36,694 bases of DNA from a virus. The stretch covers positions 1 to 36,694 of the IMG/VR virus record IMGVR_UViG_3300046000_003349; one strand, 5' to 3'. The notes beneath the pieces are model-generated. The model had not been told where the DNA came from, searched no databases, and saw only the letters and a list, made by a program, of their open reading frames with translations. Shown here piece after piece: positions 6,741 through 18,752 of the stretch (the stretch's first letter is position 1; every line of letters begins with the position of its first letter). A program made the position numbers and the translations under genes.

Positions 6741-6995
6741 TCAGACGATTGCAGTTTTAATGAAACTAGAAGCATTTTGATCCCACTGGAAATTGTGTCC
6801 AATGGATTCATCTCGCCGTGTTGTCACTCGATTCTCAAACCAGATCGGGATTCGATCTTCAGCACGCAGTGACTCGACTTTCGCTGCCTGCTCGTCAGTA
6901 AGCTCGATAGTCTCCAATAGCAAGTGGTTTGATGATTGATCCATCGCTTCCTTGAGCCAAATGCCTTTGCGCGGTCCTAGTTTTGCAAGTTTCAT
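6741..6995 (-). CDS. Hypothetical protein between sulfotransferase and lysis genes
   Basis: 84 residues; the start overlaps the sulfotransferase stop by four bases. It has an acidic helical centre (IELTDEQAAKVESLRAED) and an aromatic, polar C-terminus (ESIGHNFQWDQNASSF). No transmembrane segment or known domain is seen. Position suggests a minor virion protein or a lysis accessory factor, with no direct support. Confidence 0.55.
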   Translation of the reverse strand: MKLAKLGPRKGIWLKEAMDQSSNHLLLETIELTDEQAAKVESLRAEDRIPIWFENRVTTRRDESIGHNFQWDQNASSFIKTAIV

Positions 6996-7789
6996 AGATT
7001 TTGAATCCAGTTGAATTTCTGGTGGATGCCTTCAGAGAGATTGCGGCCAAGGGTTTTGTCCCAATCTGGGACGAGTGGGGTGACTTCACTCCGCACAGAA
7101 TGATCGCCATGCGGCCACCCAAGCTCATGTTCATGGGTGTATTGCTCGATGTTGGAGACGTTATGGATGATCGGGTCCATACCCATATACTCCCACACCT
7201 TGCTCATCGTCGCTTGTGGGTTATTCGTAAGGCTTTCTGCATGGACGAAATGCACCTTGTCTTTGTGGAGGCGAGCTACCTCATGGAGTCGCTGGACTGC
7301 AATTCCAACTGGGGCAGTGTCCATCCAGAATTGGCATCGTCCCTCCACCGTCTGGAGTCTTGCCGTGTCTACCTGCGAGTTCTCAGTCTGGAACCCAGGA
7401 TGAGCTTGGAACTTCTTCTCCATGCTCGAAAGCACACCGCGAATGTCACGAACAGGAACCAAGATCTTGGCATCAGGGAACAATTGGAAAAGCAGTGTTG
7501 CGCTGCCAATCCAAGAACGGCTCTTGTCTACTACAACAGGACGATCAGTGATGGAGTCAAAAGCATTTCTGATTCCAGCTCGCATGAAATCAAGGAAAAT
7601 AGTCTCTCCCGTTTGGGCATTGGGAATGGATCGGAACTCGTCAGTCTTGAAGAATGCTTTGGAGAGATACATGATCTCATGCACACCGCTGGTGGCTGTA
7701 GCGTGGACAAGAGAGTTCTGTGCCAGAAGGTTCTGCAACAGAGTCGAGCAAGATCGAGGTAATCCAGATGTGTAATGGACCTGTTTCAT
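6992..7789 (-). CDS. Sulfotransferase family protein
   Basis: 265 residues. The N-terminal SGLPRSCSTLLQN (8-20) is a 5'-phosphosulfate-binding P-loop, DKSRSW (89-94) fits a conserved inner segment, and VPVRDIRGVLSS (111-122) matches the 3'-phosphate-binding motif. Together these indicate transfer of sulfate from PAPS to a hydroxyl or amino group. The substrate is unknown. It is encoded in the late arm between the LRR protein and the lysis cassette, so it would act late, perhaps on a virion protein or on host surface glycan. Related sulfotransferases are known from aquatic phages. The full length and intact motifs argue for an active enzyme. Confidence 0.8.
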   Translation of the reverse strand: MKQVHYTSGLPRSCSTLLQNLLAQNSLVHATATSGVHEIMYLSKAFFKTDEFRSIPNAQTGETIFLDFMRAGIRNAFDSITDRPVVVDKSRSWIGSATLLFQLFPDAKILVPVRDIRGVLSSMEKKFQAHPGFQTENSQVDTARLQTVEGRCQFWMDTAPVGIAVQRLHEVARLHKDKVHFVHAESLTNNPQATMSKVWEYMGMDPIIHNVSNIEQYTHEHELGWPHGDHSVRSEVTPLVPDWDKTLGRNLSEGIHQKFNWIQNL

Positions 7790-9729: not shown

Positions 9730-10728
9730 TTAGGAGTAAGCGATTTTGCCGTGGGCTTGTGGATGCTTAACGCACAGGGTTCCTGCAACGTCAACAAAAC
9801 CACGCTCACCACCACCTTGGTTCTCAAGGCGAGTAGCACCCATTGGGATCAAGGTATTGAAGCCCAGATACTTAGGATTGATGACGTAGCCCACGTTGGT
9901 CGATGCGGTTGGCATACAACTTGGGTTGCCATTCAGGATCTTCACCAAGCCGAAATCGGAGTCATACAGGTTCACCGACAAGGTGATCTGCTTGCTCGTA
10001 GCATCTTGGTTGACATGGTAGGTAGTGCTTCCAGTAGCTGGATTCGCACGAGCAAACCCGCTGATAAGCTGGCGAAGTGCTACGTTAGCAACAAGCGTCA
10101 GGCTGTTCATCTCACCATTCTTGGCGAAGATCGAACCAATCAACGTGTTGAACGAACTCTCACTGATGGTAGAGGTGATGATCGAGCCAGATGGAGTCAA
10201 ATACGCAGTAGGAACCGGATTGGTTGCTTGTGCGGTGGATTGAAGCCATTTGCCAAGGCCGCGCATTCCGTAAGGAGTGCCAGCACCGTTCTCAACGGTC
10301 ATCTCGTTGGCAGATGCAATGGTGGCTTCGATGTCACGCTTGATCTCCCGCATGGACTTGGCTTCCGCCTGGGCCACATTAGCAGGACCAACGCTGGTCA
10401 CAGCTTGTTGAAGATTAGACACGATGTAGTCCCGGCGCATCAGTTGGATGTAGTTTCCAAGGCGAGCGCGGTCTGCGAACTTGTCGGAGAACGAGGTAAC
10501 GTCGGAACCTTCACTGATACCAGTAGTCGCTGGAGCAGACAGGGAGTCAACGGTCCACTCAGAGAAGGTGGCGCTGGCTTTACCTTTGCTGCAAAGCGAG
10601 AGAATTGGAGTCTCTTCTGGAGCCAGAATAGAAAGCTCATTGGAGAGATCCTCACGGTTGGACACTGCGGAACCCGTTCCCGACTTGGCGGCGGGGGCGG
10701 ATGGTTGGTAAGTATTTGAAATAGGCAT
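9730..10728 (-). CDS. Major capsid protein, SU10/DUF5309-like HK97 fold
   Basis: 332 residues. The N-terminal region (NREDLSNELSILAPEETPIL, then a TEWTVDSL-like FSEWTVDSL and EGSDVTSF) and the following helix (YIQLMRRDYIVSNLQQAV) match the DUF5309/SU10 major capsid family. A long helix with MREIKRDIEATIASANE corresponds to the spine region. Placement between scaffold and decoration genes supports the call. No protease is seen nearby and the N-terminus is short, so proteolytic maturation of the shell is not indicated. Confidence 0.85.
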   Translation of the reverse strand: MPISNTYQPSAPAAKSGTGSAVSNREDLSNELSILAPEETPILSLCSKGKASATFSEWTVDSLSAPATTGISEGSDVTSFSDKFADRARLGNYIQLMRRDYIVSNLQQAVTSVGPANVAQAEAKSMREIKRDIEATIASANEMTVENGAGTPYGMRGLGKWLQSTAQATNPVPTAYLTPSGSIITSTISESSFNTLIGSIFAKNGEMNSLTLVANVALRQLISGFARANPATGSTTYHVNQDATSKQITLSVNLYDSDFGLVKILNGNPSCMPTASTNVGYVINPKYLGFNTLIPMGATRLENQGGGERGFVDVAGTLCVKHPQAHGKIAYS

Positions 10729-10746: not shown

Positions 10747-11757
10747 TCACTTGTATTTAGCGATTCTTGCAGCAACCCATTCTTCAGGACTCCCACTCTT
10801 TTCAAAGCGGGTGTATGCGTCGGTAACCTTTGTCTTGGAGGATGTTGAGGACTTTGCAGCACCAGCACCAAATGGGGAAGGAGATGGACTGATTTTCAGT
10901 TTCGTCCCCACCGCCGGTTGCTTCTTGGTTCTCATCCCTCCGTTGATGGAGTTTGACGCATGCGCCATGATGTATTCAATCTGGTAGCCAATTTCAGGAA
11001 CTTGTTTGCGTAGCTTTTCGATAAGCGGGTCAGACATCAGATTTCTGAATTGTTTCCCGACAGTCGTGGATTCATCCTTGATGTCTGGAACTTCTTCTTC
11101 TGCCGCTGCGATGTATTGGCCTTTCAACTCTTGCATCTGGGCGATCTGCTGGAGATGCGCCTGTTGTGCAGGAATGTATTTGGTCAACGCCTCACGAGCG
11201 TTTCGGTTGGCTTTACGAATCTGCTGCTTGGTGAACTCCCGATCTCCAACTAGGATTACGTCTTCCGAACGGTAATCCTCGTATTCCTCCAATAGCTCGT
11301 CTGTTGCATCGAGGGTTTTCTCAAGCTCCTTGTATTTCCCCTTCAGCTCGTCAAATGACTGAACTTCGCGGAATGGATTTTGTTCTTGAGGGACTTCCTT
11401 AATTCCAGGTTGAGACTGAATCTTCTCCTCCAGGGCTTTCTTTTGAGCTGTCAGCTCGCCAATGCGTTGAAGCAATCGGCTCTTACCCTTTTTGGCTAAA
11501 GATTGAATCTGCTCCGTCGTCAACGACAGTAGATCAATTTCGCTTTCCTCTTCCTCTTCTTCTGGATCTTCCTCAGTTTCAGTATCTTCTGGCTGGGAAG
11601 GGTTTTCCTCCTCCTCGCCTTCAGATTCCTGCTCCTCAGGTTGTTCCTCGGATTCGGCTTCTGGATTTTGTCTGGCCGTTCTCTGAGCTACAAGCTCTTC
11701 AAATGACATGTTGGACACTGATTCGATAGCCTCAGCGGTAGCTTCTGGATTGCTCAT
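10747..11757 (-). CDS. Scaffolding protein
   Basis: 336 residues directly upstream of the capsid gene. The N-terminal ~75 residues are extremely acidic (runs of Glu and Asp with Pro and Ser). They are followed by coiled-coil helices (LLQRIGELTAQKKALEEKI; FDELKGKYKELEKTLDATDE) and a basic, Ser-rich C-terminus that would contact the inner shell. This is the usual composition of podovirus scaffolds that guide shell assembly and then leave. A promoter-like TTGACA lies about 65 bp upstream. Confidence 0.8.
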   Translation of the reverse strand: MSNPEATAEAIESVSNMSFEELVAQRTARQNPEAESEEQPEEQESEGEEEENPSQPEDTETEEDPEEEEEESEIDLLSLTTEQIQSLAKKGKSRLLQRIGELTAQKKALEEKIQSQPGIKEVPQEQNPFREVQSFDELKGKYKELEKTLDATDELLEEYEDYRSEDVILVGDREFTKQQIRKANRNAREALTKYIPAQQAHLQQIAQMQELKGQYIAAAEEEVPDIKDESTTVGKQFRNLMSDPLIEKLRKQVPEIGYQIEYIMAHASNSINGGMRTKKQPAVGTKLKISPSPSPFGAGAAKSSTSSKTKVTDAYTRFEKSGSPEEWVAARIAKYK

Positions 11758-11799
11758 ATTGGAAACGCCATTTACGCTCGGCGGTGCGATTCGCCGGAC

Positions 11800-11827
11800 G
11801 CTAATGCAATTTAATTACATTTGTCAA
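11800..11827 (-). promoter_or_regulatory. Candidate promoter for the scaffold-capsid operon
   Basis: On the minus strand a perfect TTGACA (11827-11822) precedes an AT-rich spacer (AATGTAATTAAATTGC). No good -10 hexamer is present; ATTAGC or TTAGCG fall at the right distance but match poorly. A separate start is expected here because the terminator at 13095-13139 blocks leftward transcripts from the portal genes. A short inverted repeat (CTTGA-TCG-TCAAG, 11852-11864) upstream could be an operator. Confidence 0.45.
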
Positions 11828-11884
11828 TAGCCTTGTTGAGTAGCTAGGCATCTTGATCGTCAAGTGACTTTTCAGTTCTAGAAA

Positions 11885-12063
11885 AAATTGCTTGTTTCGT
11901 TGGAGATCCTACATGAATATCCAGCCATCTTGCCACGCAGGTTGTCGGACACGTTGAAACGGTCGGCGGCTAGTCGATCGCCTACCCTGTTTATCTCAGG
12001 GGGATTGGCAAGCTGGGTGACTCCAGTAGAGATACGATTGACCCACGTTACGGGTCATTTTTT
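11885..12063 (+). ncRNA. Candidate small RNA or attenuated leader ending at a + strand terminator
   Basis: The + strand shows GGCG/CGCC around 11964-11981, CCCTG/CAGGG (11985-12000), and an outer TATCTC (11992-11997)/GAGATA (12029-12034) stem enclosing CTGG/CCAG (12013-12016/12023-12026); the CCCTG stem and the TATCTC stem exclude each other. A rho-independent terminator follows at 12039-12063. No + strand protein gene lies upstream, so the terminator must end a non-coding transcript or an early-terminated leader. The 5' end and promoter are not clear; 11885 is an approximate boundary. Confidence 0.45.
12039..12063 (+). terminator. Rho-independent terminator on the + strand
   Basis: TGACCC (12039-12044)/GGGTCA (12052-12057) forms a 6-bp stem with loop ACGTTAC and is followed at once by six T. 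The minus strand has no T run after the hairpin, so it acts on rightward transcripts only. It ends the candidate small RNA upstream or attenuates a longer leader. Confidence 0.75.
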
Positions 12064-12077
12064 GTTGTAGATTTCTC

Positions 12078-12106
12078 TTGCACCGTCCAAAAATCCTGCT
12101 TAGATT
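12078..12106 (+). promoter_or_regulatory. Candidate promoter for the structured RNA and sigma-like gene
   Basis: TTGCAC (12078-12083), 17-base spacer, TAGATT (12101-12106). The hexamers match the sigma-70 consensus 3/6 and 4/6 with ideal spacing. It lies just after the + strand terminator and would start a transcript near 12112, at the beginning of the structured region. Confidence 0.35.
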
Positions 12107-12107
12107 G

Positions 12108-12545
12108 GCGTTGACGAGAGGTTGCACTCAACGTCATCTTGTTTTCCCCCGCTGGTTCTGTCCAGCCACTGAAAGCTCCGATGCGGTATTGCAACCTCCC
12201 GCCTCGGAGTTTTCCTTTTCCAGTGGGAGAGCTTGGAACATACGATGCCGTGCAGTCTGAGAAATGGCGTGAATCCCGGCGAGCTGGAGATCTTCAAGGT
12301 TCTGTGCGTTTAGGTTGTCAACGCACGGGTAATCAGTCGCAGTCGAAAGGCTGGGCAAGCCTTGTGTCACGCGAAGCAATTCGCAGGGAGCCTCTATCGA
12401 GACAGTCCTACTCCCGACACAAGGTCCGGTTCAATCCCGGTCGTGAGAAAGCAAAGGAGTGGCTCCATACAGAGACGTTCTTCGATCACGGTTGATTCCT
12501 TGACAGGACAACCGTGTCCGCTGCAGGAGATCACCACCAGAGACT
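12108..12545 (+). ncRNA. Large structured RNA: candidate phage ornate ncRNA or structured leader
   Basis: Stems read by eye on the + strand: CGTTGA 12109-12114/12128-12133; GCTGG/CCAGC 12151-12166; CTCCGA-GCGG/CCGC-TCGGAG 12176-12209 followed by TTTTCCTTTT; GTGCGTT/AACGCAC 12304-12326; CAGTC-GAAA-GGCTG 12340-12353; a three-way junction closed by CCTTGTGTC 12360-12368/GACACAAGG 12416-12424, holding GCGAA-GCAA-TTCGC 12371-12384 and GGGAG/CTCCC 12386-12390/12411-12415; a T-loop hairpin CCGG-TTCAATC-CCGG 12426-12440; and CACGGTTG/CAACCGTG 12487-12516 with an inner TCCT/AGGA. GAGGTTGCA (12118-12126) can pair with the loop TGCAACCTC (12190-12198), a potential pseudoknot. The U-G pair in the GAAA hairpin and two GNRA loops fix the orientation as +. 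GOLLD and ROOL are known large phage-linked RNAs of this style; I cannot match the sequence to either. It could also be the 5' leader of the gene at 12606. Confidence 0.6.
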
Positions 12546-12605
12546 TGAGCGAATGACGCTGATTATTCTTGAAATGATTGAGAAGAAAGAGAAACTAACC
12601 CCGAA

Positions 12606-13091
12606 ATGACAACACAAATGAACGCTGGCGAAATCAAAAACAAACTCGATGAACTTGAAATAAGCATTAAGGCTCAACAAGATAGGATTTCTGATGGGCG
12701 AGAAGTGATGAAAACACTCGGTTTGCAACTCAATGACTCTAAAGAAGAATTAAGAAGGTTGAAGGTGGATTTAAAAAGAAAAACAGAAGAAGATAAGATT
12801 GAATCTGAATGTGAAATCAATCTTGCCGGAGTCTGGGGTGACTTCCATGAGATGGGATTCAGCAAAAAGGAAATCCATGTTCTCCAGAATTTTGACCTTA
12901 CACATAAAAAAATGGGACTGACCCTGGGCGTTTCCGTTGAAAGAGCGCGTCAAATCAGGCTGAGATGCTTGAGAAGGTGCAAGCATCCCCGCCTCTCCTT
13001 GTTTTTCAAAGTTCAACGTGAAAACCAAAACAAATCAGAAAGCAGGGACAATCAATTTGATTCGCTCCTAGATATTCTTGTCAAAAATTGA
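12606..13091 (+). CDS. Protein with sigma-70 region-4-like DNA-binding domain
   Basis: 161 residues. Residues 1-65 form a charged coiled coil. Residues about 99-128 (LTHKKMGLTLGVSVERARQI then RLRCLRRCKHP) copy the region 4.2 helix-turn-helix of sigma-70 factors, which binds the -35 element. Regions 2 and 3 are absent, so it is not a full sigma factor. I infer a phage regulator that contacts -35 DNA or RNA polymerase, possibly for late transcription. It is the only + strand gene inside the leftward late arm and is preceded by the structured RNA, which may be its leader. A start at codon 5 is also possible. Confidence 0.7.
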   Translation: MTTQMNAGEIKNKLDELEISIKAQQDRISDGREVMKTLGLQLNDSKEELRRLKVDLKRKTEEDKIESECEINLAGVWGDFHEMGFSKKEIHVLQNFDLTHKKMGLTLGVSVERARQIRLRCLRRCKHPRLSLFFKVQRENQNKSESRDNQFDSLLDILVKN

Positions 13092-13799: not shown

Positions 13800-14432
13800 T
13801 TAGTAAGCCCATTTGGAGTCTCCAAGAAACTCTGCGGAGTCTTGCCACCATTCGTCCCATTGTTCGTTTGTAGCCACTTCCCAGCTAGGAATACACTCAG
13901 CAGCACCTTCTTTGACTAGGCTGATTGGCAGCCATTTCAAACGATTGTTTGGATAAATTGCAATCTGACCATTTGACAACTTCACCACATTCCCCTCTTT
14001 GTGTTCTTCAAGAAGCTCAACGTCACCAATATCAAACGTCCCAGCAGCTTGATTCTCAGGCAGAAAGTCAATCGTGAACCAGTAATGACCACTCATGGGA
14101 GTGCATCCTTTACCCATGTTCACCAGCATTGGAACATCAGCAAGCTGGGCTTTTTGCCAGATCTCAATGCTGCCTGACAAGCATTCCCATAATTGCACCT
14201 TGTGAAGCGGCAGATCAATCTGCTCACCATCTGGCTCATACCAGTAAATGCAATGCGGTGGGATCTTGTCAAAGCAGGCAGCGTATTTGTCCACCCAGAC
14301 TTGGAAGCAGAATGGCCGATTCCGCATAGCGCGGACACTCAGCAACCATGCTGGCTCATACTCTGTCTCGCTACCTCCAAATGCGTCACAACGGACATAC
14401 ACTCGGCACTTGGGAAGGTTTGCGTTTCTCAT
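13800..14432 (-). CDS. Conserved-looking phage protein of unknown function
   Basis: 210 residues, beta-rich and aromatic. Features include an N-terminal CRVYVRCDAFGGSETEYEPA segment, HKVQLWECLSG, a SGHYWFTIDFLPEN segment and a C-terminal WDEWWQDSAEFLGD. It looks like a compact globular protein, possibly a carbohydrate- or nucleotide-handling fold, but no catalytic motif stands out. It lies among small basic virion-associated genes downstream of the portal gene. Confidence 0.55.
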   Translation of the reverse strand: MRNANLPKCRVYVRCDAFGGSETEYEPAWLLSVRAMRNRPFCFQVWVDKYAACFDKIPPHCIYWYEPDGEQIDLPLHKVQLWECLSGSIEIWQKAQLADVPMLVNMGKGCTPMSGHYWFTIDFLPENQAAGTFDIGDVELLEEHKEGNVVKLSNGQIAIYPNNRLKWLPISLVKEGAAECIPSWEVATNEQWDEWWQDSAEFLGDSKWAY

Positions 14433-17153: not shown

Positions 17154-18752
17154 TTAATAGCCTCCACCTCCCTGAGTTGTAACCGAACTGGCGGAATTGT
17201 CAACGTGATCGATGCCGGCAATGGCTGCGTAGCGCAAAACGTCGATCACATCCTTCCACGCTTCCTTTAATCCACCGTCACCAGTGTATTCCGACAAACC
17301 TTGGATGATATTCTCACAGTCAGAGCTAATGTAGAAATGCGGACGATTCACGGAATCATAAGGTTTGGACGTATCCCATGCCATTTTCCCAATCAAAGCC
17401 TGCAATCCATCGTCAATATCCAACCCAGGCGCCGGGATGCAAACCAGTCCAGCATCGCTCAAATCCTCGATAATCGAAGAGGAACCGTCCTGGACCTGGT
17501 ATTTCGCAGCTCCTAGCCGTGGGTCAATCAACCGCTCAAAGATGTCCTCTTCCTCCTCAAGCTGCTCGATAAGCTCAACGTAGTCTCTGATCCCGTATCC
17601 CTGACCTTTTGCTCCTTCTCCAGGCATCCACTTTCCACCTCTCCATTCCGCCCAATCACCCACATCCACTCCAGGCCATTCACGGTAAACCCACATAGTT
17701 CCCGTCTCATCCATTGCAATCCAGCACATGAACCAGTTCTTCGATCCAGCCGGATCAATCACATGATACCTTGTGACGTTCTTCTTTGGGATCTTGTCCG
17801 GTGAAACCACGTTCACAACCTTGTTGAACTTGGGGAACTTTGTGGCGTGTGACTTCATTGGCACACCATAGGCGCGGATGAGAATCTCTTCTCGTGTCCT
17901 ACCTTTTAGCGTCTCCTTGATGCGGTCATATCCACCAAAAGCGTTGTCCTGAGAGTGAAAATAATGCACTGAGGCATTGAGCTTCTTTGACTTCTGGACA
18001 TACGGAACAAGCTCATTGTTGAGCAGTTCTGCCTTACGACTCTCAATCGTGGTGGCACCATCCAAATACTCCTTGATCACTTCTGTCCACCCATCAATCG
18101 GGGTGAATGTCACCAGCATCTTGGAGTTTCGAGTGGCAAGGCGAAACCTCAACGTGTTGATCAGCTCAGGTCCAAGCAGGTATTCGTCCAACCACACACC
18201 AATATTGTGCCACACAGGATTCCTTGATCCAAGCTCCGCACCTTCTAGAATGGTTGGGTTGTTCTGATACTGGGAATACGTCTTGAAAATAATCTGTGAA
18301 CCATTGGGAAGGATCAACGAGGAGTCAGTAAATCCGGTCTTCTTCTTGTAGGAGATGTAAGCGTTTGCGCTTGTAAACTTGGTTTTAAGATACTCTGGCA
18401 ACCAAGCCCAAACTGCACTTTGCTGCTGCCGAATTGAAACCTCAGACGTTTGAGCAAAGCAGAAGATCTCAGAGTTTGGATTCTCCACCGCAGCACGGAC
18501 AACAGAGAACGCACCCCATTGAGTTTTTCCGCTTCTGTTTCCTCCCAAAGCTAGAATCTCATTGACCTCATAAAGCTGCTCTTCAGCCTTGGTCCAGTGA
18601 GGCAGTCGAAACCCATACGCATACGGGTCTTTTTCTGCATTTTCAATCGCTTCATGGTAAACGCGATGGATCGACAACACCTCCTCAGGTGTCATCTCGA
18701 TCAATTCCTCGTCGGTGGGAGGAGAAAGAATCTGGTGCGGACGCCAAATCAT
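17154..18752 (-). CDS. terL: Terminase large subunit
   Basis: 532 residues. ATPase: GGNRSGKT Walker A (70-77) and VWLDE Walker B (186-190). Nuclease of RNase H fold: first acidic strand HVIDPAG (330-336), second RLIDPR (407-412) and a C-terminal Asp in WKDVIDVLRYA. The enzyme cuts concatemeric DNA and powers translocation through the portal. Length and motif order are normal. It overlaps the small-subunit gene by four bases. Confidence 0.93.
   Translation of the reverse strand: MIWRPHQILSPPTDEELIEMTPEEVLSIHRVYHEAIENAEKDPYAYGFRLPHWTKAEEQLYEVNEILALGGNRSGKTQWGAFSVVRAAVENPNSEIFCFAQTSEVSIRQQQSAVWAWLPEYLKTKFTSANAYISYKKKTGFTDSSLILPNGSQIIFKTYSQYQNNPTILEGAELGSRNPVWHNIGVWLDEYLLGPELINTLRFRLATRNSKMLVTFTPIDGWTEVIKEYLDGATTIESRKAELLNNELVPYVQKSKKLNASVHYFHSQDNAFGGYDRIKETLKGRTREEILIRAYGVPMKSHATKFPKFNKVVNVVSPDKIPKKNVTRYHVIDPAGSKNWFMCWIAMDETGTMWVYREWPGVDVGDWAEWRGGKWMPGEGAKGQGYGIRDYVELIEQLEEEEDIFERLIDPRLGAAKYQVQDGSSSIIEDLSDAGLVCIPAPGLDIDDGLQALIGKMAWDTSKPYDSVNRPHFYISSDCENIIQGLSEYTGDGGLKEAWKDVIDVLRYAAIAGIDHVDNSASSVTTQGGGGY

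Follow-up and report, generated by a model that had tools for sequence, protein, structure and literature searches.

A probable new structured RNA with a portable kissing-loop leader in the late region of a small tailed phage

What occupies the roughly 440 bases that lie on the plus strand amid the minus-strand late region of this phage, between positions 11757 and 12606? The window, that is, the whole stretch of DNA analysed, is a 36,694-base virus record from IMG/VR whose protein families point to a small tailed phage; besides the capsid and terminase genes (Table 1), the protein-family search recovered Erf, exonuclease and DnaC-like genes. The nearest named phage is C75C1 (MCP 55%, terminase 42%), which has no room for the cassette at this site. 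Alignment of the MCP to 84,980 genomes of bacteria and archaea revealed no relative, and therefore no host was assigned. Two other minus-strand genes are worth recording: a Sulfotransferase-family gene (Pfam Sulfotransfer_3, 6992-7789) amid the structural genes and, in the late region, a match at 13800-14432 to phrog_3704, annotated 'ferredoxin' in PHROG (E 9e-35). The original prediction, made from the letters of the window, had placed a large structured RNA at 12108-12545 and offered three readings: membership of the GOLLD or ROOL class, a new class, or an elaborate leader of the sigma-like gene downstream. Our comparative analysis favours the second, and a real, new structured non-coding RNA is in our judgement very probable.

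Over the whole region (526 nt) the folding energy is unremarkable, with z = -1.1 and 15 of 100 shuffles doing equally well, and it is the comparative data that decide; the core at 12300-12445 gives z = -2.9, with 3 of 200 shuffles as good. Starting from 80 capsid-gene relatives and adding DNA patterns, we found the same type of RNA, called type A, in a further 13 viral contigs, and the 11 of adequate length were aligned with the window to give 12 homologues. Homology spans 12109-12547, nearly the predicted interval, and all the stems placed there are present, with 96.3% of cells paired across the alignment. In the refined structure, standard pairs fill 98.0% of pair cells, whereas sliding the partners by 1-3 columns lowers the figure to 35-42%. 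Double changes affect 23 pairs, against 5.1 +/- 1.6 in shuffles, a count in which several sequences are close kin and one divergent homologue, L145, gives most of the double changes in body A. Other changes are independent of L145: the pair 12427-12439 is G-C in some sequences and C-G in others, the junction stem takes several states at 12365-12367/12417-12419, and the helix 12218-12223/12284-12289 reads CCAG/CTGG or CCAA/TTGG. The stretch was rightly described as gene-free: its frames are interrupted by indels and stops and none stays open across the homologues, so a protein-coding reading was rejected. Thus, in related phages, where covariation was to be sought, the stems are kept by compensatory change and no reading frame is conserved. 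Moreover, none of 4227 Rfam families matched the RNA at gathering or relaxed thresholds, in the window or in its relatives. Together with the covariation and the 13 contigs, this argues for a new class. We take 12113 to about 12540 to be a non-coding, structurally conserved phage RNA, with a predicted leader (12113-12220) and a predicted folded body (12218-12540).

Table 1. Position of the RNA elements and of neighbouring features in the window
Feature	Position	Strand	Description
SU10-type capsid protein	9730-10728	minus	protein-family match
Second structured RNA unit	11925-12068	plus	directly upstream; intrinsic terminator 12039-12057 (terminator scan)
Putative sigma70-type promoter	12078-12106	plus	TTGCAC-17-TAGATT; start expected about 12112-12113
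Leader hairpin 1	12113-12135	plus	GACG.GAG / CTC..CGTC; loop is the first kissing strand
Kissing strand 1	12118-12126	plus	GAGGTTGCA; complementary to 12190-12198; takes in inner GAG of hairpin 1
Leader hairpin 2, terminator-like	12173-12220	plus	A-rich flank, G+C stem, kissing-strand-2 loop (12190-12198), U-rich tail
Body domain I	12218-12289	plus	closing helix 12218-12223/12284-12289; inner helix 12248-12250/12277-12279
Hairpin 12301-12309/12321-12329	12301-12329	plus	invariant loop UAGGUUGUC; 3 double-change pairs, 100% paired
GNRA hairpin	12340-12353	plus	CAGTC-GAAA-GGCTG; 100% paired; compensatory change in L145
Three-way junction	12360-12424	plus	stem 12360-12368/12416-12424 (9 bp), arms 12371-12384 and 12386-12415; 100% paired
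T-loop hairpin	12426-12440	plus	CCGG-UUCAAUC-CCGG; abuts junction stem; CCGG/CCGG versus CGGG/CCCG covariation
Long-range helix	12442-12490	plus	CGUGA/UCACG, 12442-12446/12486-12490; 100% paired, one double-change pair
Possible closing helix	12459-12534	plus	GUGGCUCC/GGAG..CAC; weak; 94% paired, but 5 of 12 sequences break one pair
Bulged 3' hairpin	12487-12516	plus	GGUUG..CAACC; 99% paired, nearly invariant, hence little covariation evidence
Sigma-like gene	12606-13091	plus	161-aa coiled-coil protein with sigma70 region-4-like HTH
Terminase, large subunit (Terminase_6N)	17154-18752	minus	protein-family match

The body of the window's RNA, which we call body A, opens with a domain whose closing helix the original prediction had overlooked. 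This helix covaries, and domain I also shows TTAG/CTAA, CCG/CGG and CCA/TGG. In the three-way junction, six pairs distributed over three helices have changed on both sides. The divergent homologue L145 swaps CTTGTGTC/GACACAAG for CTTGCACC/GGTGCAAG, GCGAA/TTCGC for GCTGA/TCAGC and GGGAG/CTCCC for TAGAG/CTCTA, and its counterpart of the first GNRA hairpin is CTGTC-GTAA-GACAG, with a GTAA loop. The second GNRA hairpin, GCGAA-GCAA-TTCGC (the junction arm 12371-12384), is present in the window as predicted; its GNRA loop is lost in L145. Residues U1, U2, C3 and A5 of the T-loop are kept. A tRNA or tmRNA was considered and rejected: the T-loop hairpin is isolated, and ARAGORN and Rfam gave no cloverleaf or tmRNA fold. 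Finally, the 12-bp bulged hairpin stands with one amendment, namely that its base and the covarying long-range helix, which reads CATGA/TCATG in L145, are mutually exclusive.

The first 110 nt or so form a separate portable module, a second feature missed initially. The putative start expected just downstream of the promoter-like site (Table 1) would make hairpin 1 the 5' end of the RNA. At this site many relatives carry TTGACN-16/17-TATTTT or CATTAT, with 6-7 nt between its end and hairpin 1; the window's copy is weaker and was left unlisted by the consensus scan. The outer stem of hairpin 1 is paired in 83% of cells. The complement proposed between the two leader loops was confirmed at 9 bp, and a perfect complement of 8-10 nt joins them in 45 of the 46 distinct leaders found by nhmmer, a sample biased in that the seed alignment was mostly gathered by requiring the complement. 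The nhmmer search itself did not require it, and non-seed leaders share it (for example L019, L062, L071, L075, L079, L106, L114 and L128). Within one genome the complementary run has a mean length of 8.9 nt, which falls to 5.5 nt if the hairpins of different genomes are set against each other. We list 23 distinct matched versions, among them GAGGTTGCA/TGCAACCTC in the window, AGACGGGGG/CCCCCGTCT in L115, CGACCGAAA/TTTCGGTCG in L065 and GCTACAACC/GGTTGTAGC in L015; L048 adds a further pair, GATACTACC/GGTAGTATC. The sole exception, L123 (657-800, plus strand), has a complement of 5 nt and combines hairpins 1 and 2 from different versions; it would be either a mosaic produced by recombination or an assembly chimera. 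Across relatives, hairpin 2 has the G+C stem followed by a U-tract of an intrinsic terminator, and we call it terminator-like by sequence. Indeed, a U-rich tail follows it in nearly all of the 45 leaders, 41 of them having 6 or more T in 12. In the window this tail is interrupted (TTTTCCTTTT), and the 12-nt loop exceeds the limit of the terminator scan, so that the hairpin was unlisted there.

The leader recurs in many relatives ahead of unrelated sequence, where what follows is one of at least four further RNA bodies or, directly, protein genes. Body A is found in the window and in L002, L008, L016, L017, L082, L083, L086, L089-091 and L145. Body B, of about 280 nt, is the commonest; body C occurs in L015, L046 and L048, body D in L062, L064-067, L071, L073, L075 and L079, and body E in L025 and L033. 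In L012, L014, L019, L026 and L070, protein genes follow the leader immediately. Body D has compensatory pairs of its own (9 with double changes in 7 sequences) and, by eye, begins like body A with ACATATC(GAAG)AAACCGAG; the two are perhaps remotely related. Body B is 99.3% identical in L119 and L114, whose leaders are 53.7% identical, and the leaders of L115 and L119 are 100% identical. Leaders and bodies thus recombine, the leader being swapped between bodies.

By the same searches, neither leader nor body is present in 38 of the 73 MCP relatives with enough flank, and some of these (L010, for example) have 11830 joined nearly straight to 13107. As a consequence, we regard the RNA as an accessory, moron-like insert, a cassette whose strand is opposite to that of the late genes around it. 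Among named phages and plasmids, blastn gave no homologue of the RNA, only chance matches of 22 nt, and in 84,980 prokaryote genomes the leader pattern had 9 matches, about the chance number, none of them a leader.

We propose the following scenario for this cassette. Transcription would begin at hairpin 1, and the emerging loop of hairpin 2 would pair with hairpin 1 inside the same molecule. This kissing would decide whether the polymerase stops at the U-tract, leaving a short RNA of about 110 nt, or reads through into the cargo. Hairpin 2 would thus be a conditional terminator, and the cargo would be a large RNA body in the window and different bodies or protein genes in other phages. Protein genes directly behind hairpin 2 imply that the polymerase must get past it on some occasions at least, and the conservation of the U-tail suggests that it does not always do so. 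Gating of read-through by the leader has, in our estimate, somewhat less than an even chance of being right; alternatively, the role of the kissing pair may be structural only. The body would bind some component of the host, a protein being the likeliest, and so act in trans; such action on a host target we likewise place a little below even. A gated leader and a trans-acting body operating jointly, the decoy step left aside, is a tentative and rather unlikely combination. Our preferred guess for the body, a decoy or antitoxin mimic blunting a host abortive-infection system, is in itself unlikely. It is equally doubtful that the whole is an island of 'RNA cargo', in which large RNA effectors that can be exchanged, each working in trans (for example as antitoxin mimics directed at different host abortive-infection systems), are driven by a swappable conditional terminator of the kissing-loop type.

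The idea of a defence decoy comes from an abiF-antitoxin-like element, with no Abi_2 gene, beside the copies of two relatives. In L025 (6393-6428, minus strand) and L033 (1807-1842, minus strand), an abiF RNA match scores 33 bits and is sub-threshold (gathering 37), with E = 6.6e-4 in 951 b and 0.025-0.032 in wider scans. The abiF-like hairpin is the terminator of an RNA unit of about 250-265 nt that has its own promoter-like site and lies directly upstream of the type E leader. The abiF RNA is a trans-acting antitoxin, and RCd22, with two abiF motifs, acts in cis and in trans (PMC12373285). No Abi_2 gene (PF07751) was found in the window's record or in nine relatives, the L025 and L033 records included. 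Against a decoy, the match is not only sub-threshold but belongs to the relatives' neighbouring unit, outside the window's RNA; the latter has no abiF hairpin and no Rfam antitoxin match, and body A resembles no antitoxin RNA. An exact copy of the abiF loop consensus, GCCTCTCAACGATGCTCA, occurs in L028 at about 10669-10686 (minus strand) immediately past the stop of a DnaC-like gene; it lacks the stem and was not accepted as an element. The window has its own second structured unit upstream (Table 1), which is conserved in L084/L002, L091 and L008/L085 only, with one compensatory pair in three sequences. This unit and a loop of the main RNA share the string AGGTTGTC.

The diversity of matched loops could reflect compensatory drift with recombination, assembly between molecules or type-specific interference. 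If the loops paired between molecules, head to tail, in the manner of the kissing loops of GOLLD and ROOL cages, the RNA would form rings or chains, and the versions of the loop pair would prevent the RNAs of different phages from mixing. Each molecule does carry two complementary loops of 8-10 nt, the versions are many and orthogonal, T-loop and GNRA motifs are present, and the covarying kissing loops of GOLLD and ROOL cages proved intermolecular (PMC12286853). However, the loops are only about 60-75 nt apart and able to pair within one molecule, the leader also precedes protein genes without any body, and Rfam gives no relation to either family. We consider both such assembly and its role in keeping RNAs apart to be unlikely.

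Phages P4 and P1 possess antisense RNA immunity systems. By analogy, the short terminated RNA might pair in trans with the nascent leader of a phage of the same type and stop its cassette. The leader alleles are diverse, match internally and move from one body to another, as one expects of a specificity element, but recombination between diverged alleles would look alike, the cassette is accessory, and no integrase or repressor was among the window proteins tested; such interference seems to us quite unlikely.

Improbable as well is a leader that, as HK022 putL RNA suggests by analogy, would bind RNA polymerase directly and render it terminator-resistant for the following genes. Both have two hairpins at the start of the transcript before diverse cargo, yet loop variability is ill suited to a fixed polymerase site, and the portion of the published account available to us describes a putRNA of about 70 nt with two stem-loops and mentions no kissing terminator hairpin (PMC9378689).

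The sigma-like gene provides the basis for a further reading, in which the whole 440 nt would be its cis-acting leader, a riboswitch or attenuator. Its product matches Pfam Sigma70_r4 at 21.2 bits, just below the cut-off, and the gene lies downstream on the same strand. Single-sequence patterns found no relative of the protein in viral contigs, and homologues later emerged beside body B: they follow this unrelated body in L114, L116, L119, L123 and L126 (and partially in L124), with 29-31% identity in two alignments. Among the loci examined the gene occurs only beside such RNAs, a count biased in that many loci were gathered via the RNA. Nevertheless, the gene is deleted in L002 with the RNA retained and is also absent after the RNA in L091, L144 and L145, most copies have other genes next, and the L114 gene seems, from its sequence, to have a promoter-like site of its own. 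The sigma-like gene is thus an optional neighbour, outside the RNA, and as the main reading the leader hypothesis is not supported; we regard it as very improbable. Least credible of all are chance folds in a functionless relic, since the unremarkable whole-region folding energy is outweighed by strong compensatory change and near-universal loop complementarity, which refute this for the core helices.

We return to the preferred reading, a gated leader ahead of a trans-acting body, and to what the family offers. What we describe is in all likelihood a genuine structured RNA, not catalogued before, whose kissing-loop leader is unusual and portable. The function of GOLLD, ROOL and similar large phage RNAs is not known, and here a compact family in small tailed phages supplies natural presence/absence variants and interchangeable bodies, while its many matched loop pairs are ready-made compensatory mutants. 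Kissing-loop terminator gating and trans roles of phage RNAs thereby become directly testable. Were the defence link true, anti-defence protein islands would have in this family a general counterpart made of RNA; were the RNA-cargo island true, it would parallel the exchangeable anti-defence protein genes of other phages.

Several known systems resemble parts of this RNA. The two loops of phi29 pRNA have matched complementary sequences that vary together, as in our leader; the structure and place differ, the window phage has a Terminase_6N large subunit, and Rfam gave no match. The HK022 put RNA likewise offers a promoter-proximal hairpin pair ahead of varied cargo, a functional analogy for the leader only, and differs from it in that the window's leader has kissing loops, a terminator-like second hairpin and variable loops. 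The abiF RNA and type III antitoxin RNAs are short and structured, and they can target a toxin in trans (PMC12373285). L025 and L033 have an abiF-like element at this locus, whereas the window's RNA lacks the motif and no toxin gene was recognised next to it.

GOLLD and ROOL are nearest in kind, being large structured phage-borne ncRNAs with kissing loops (PMC12286853), yet they are not relatives by the covariance-model test. The membership first envisaged found no match at gathering: neither family appeared up to E = 10 in 11700-12700, where the only matches were two unrelated ones due to chance, nor in seven relatives. GOLLD and ROOL are frequently, though not obligatorily, sited near tRNA genes; ARAGORN found none in the window. 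They measure about 660 or over 800 nt against 440 nt here, and the window's RNA differs from both in its portable leader and exchangeable body.
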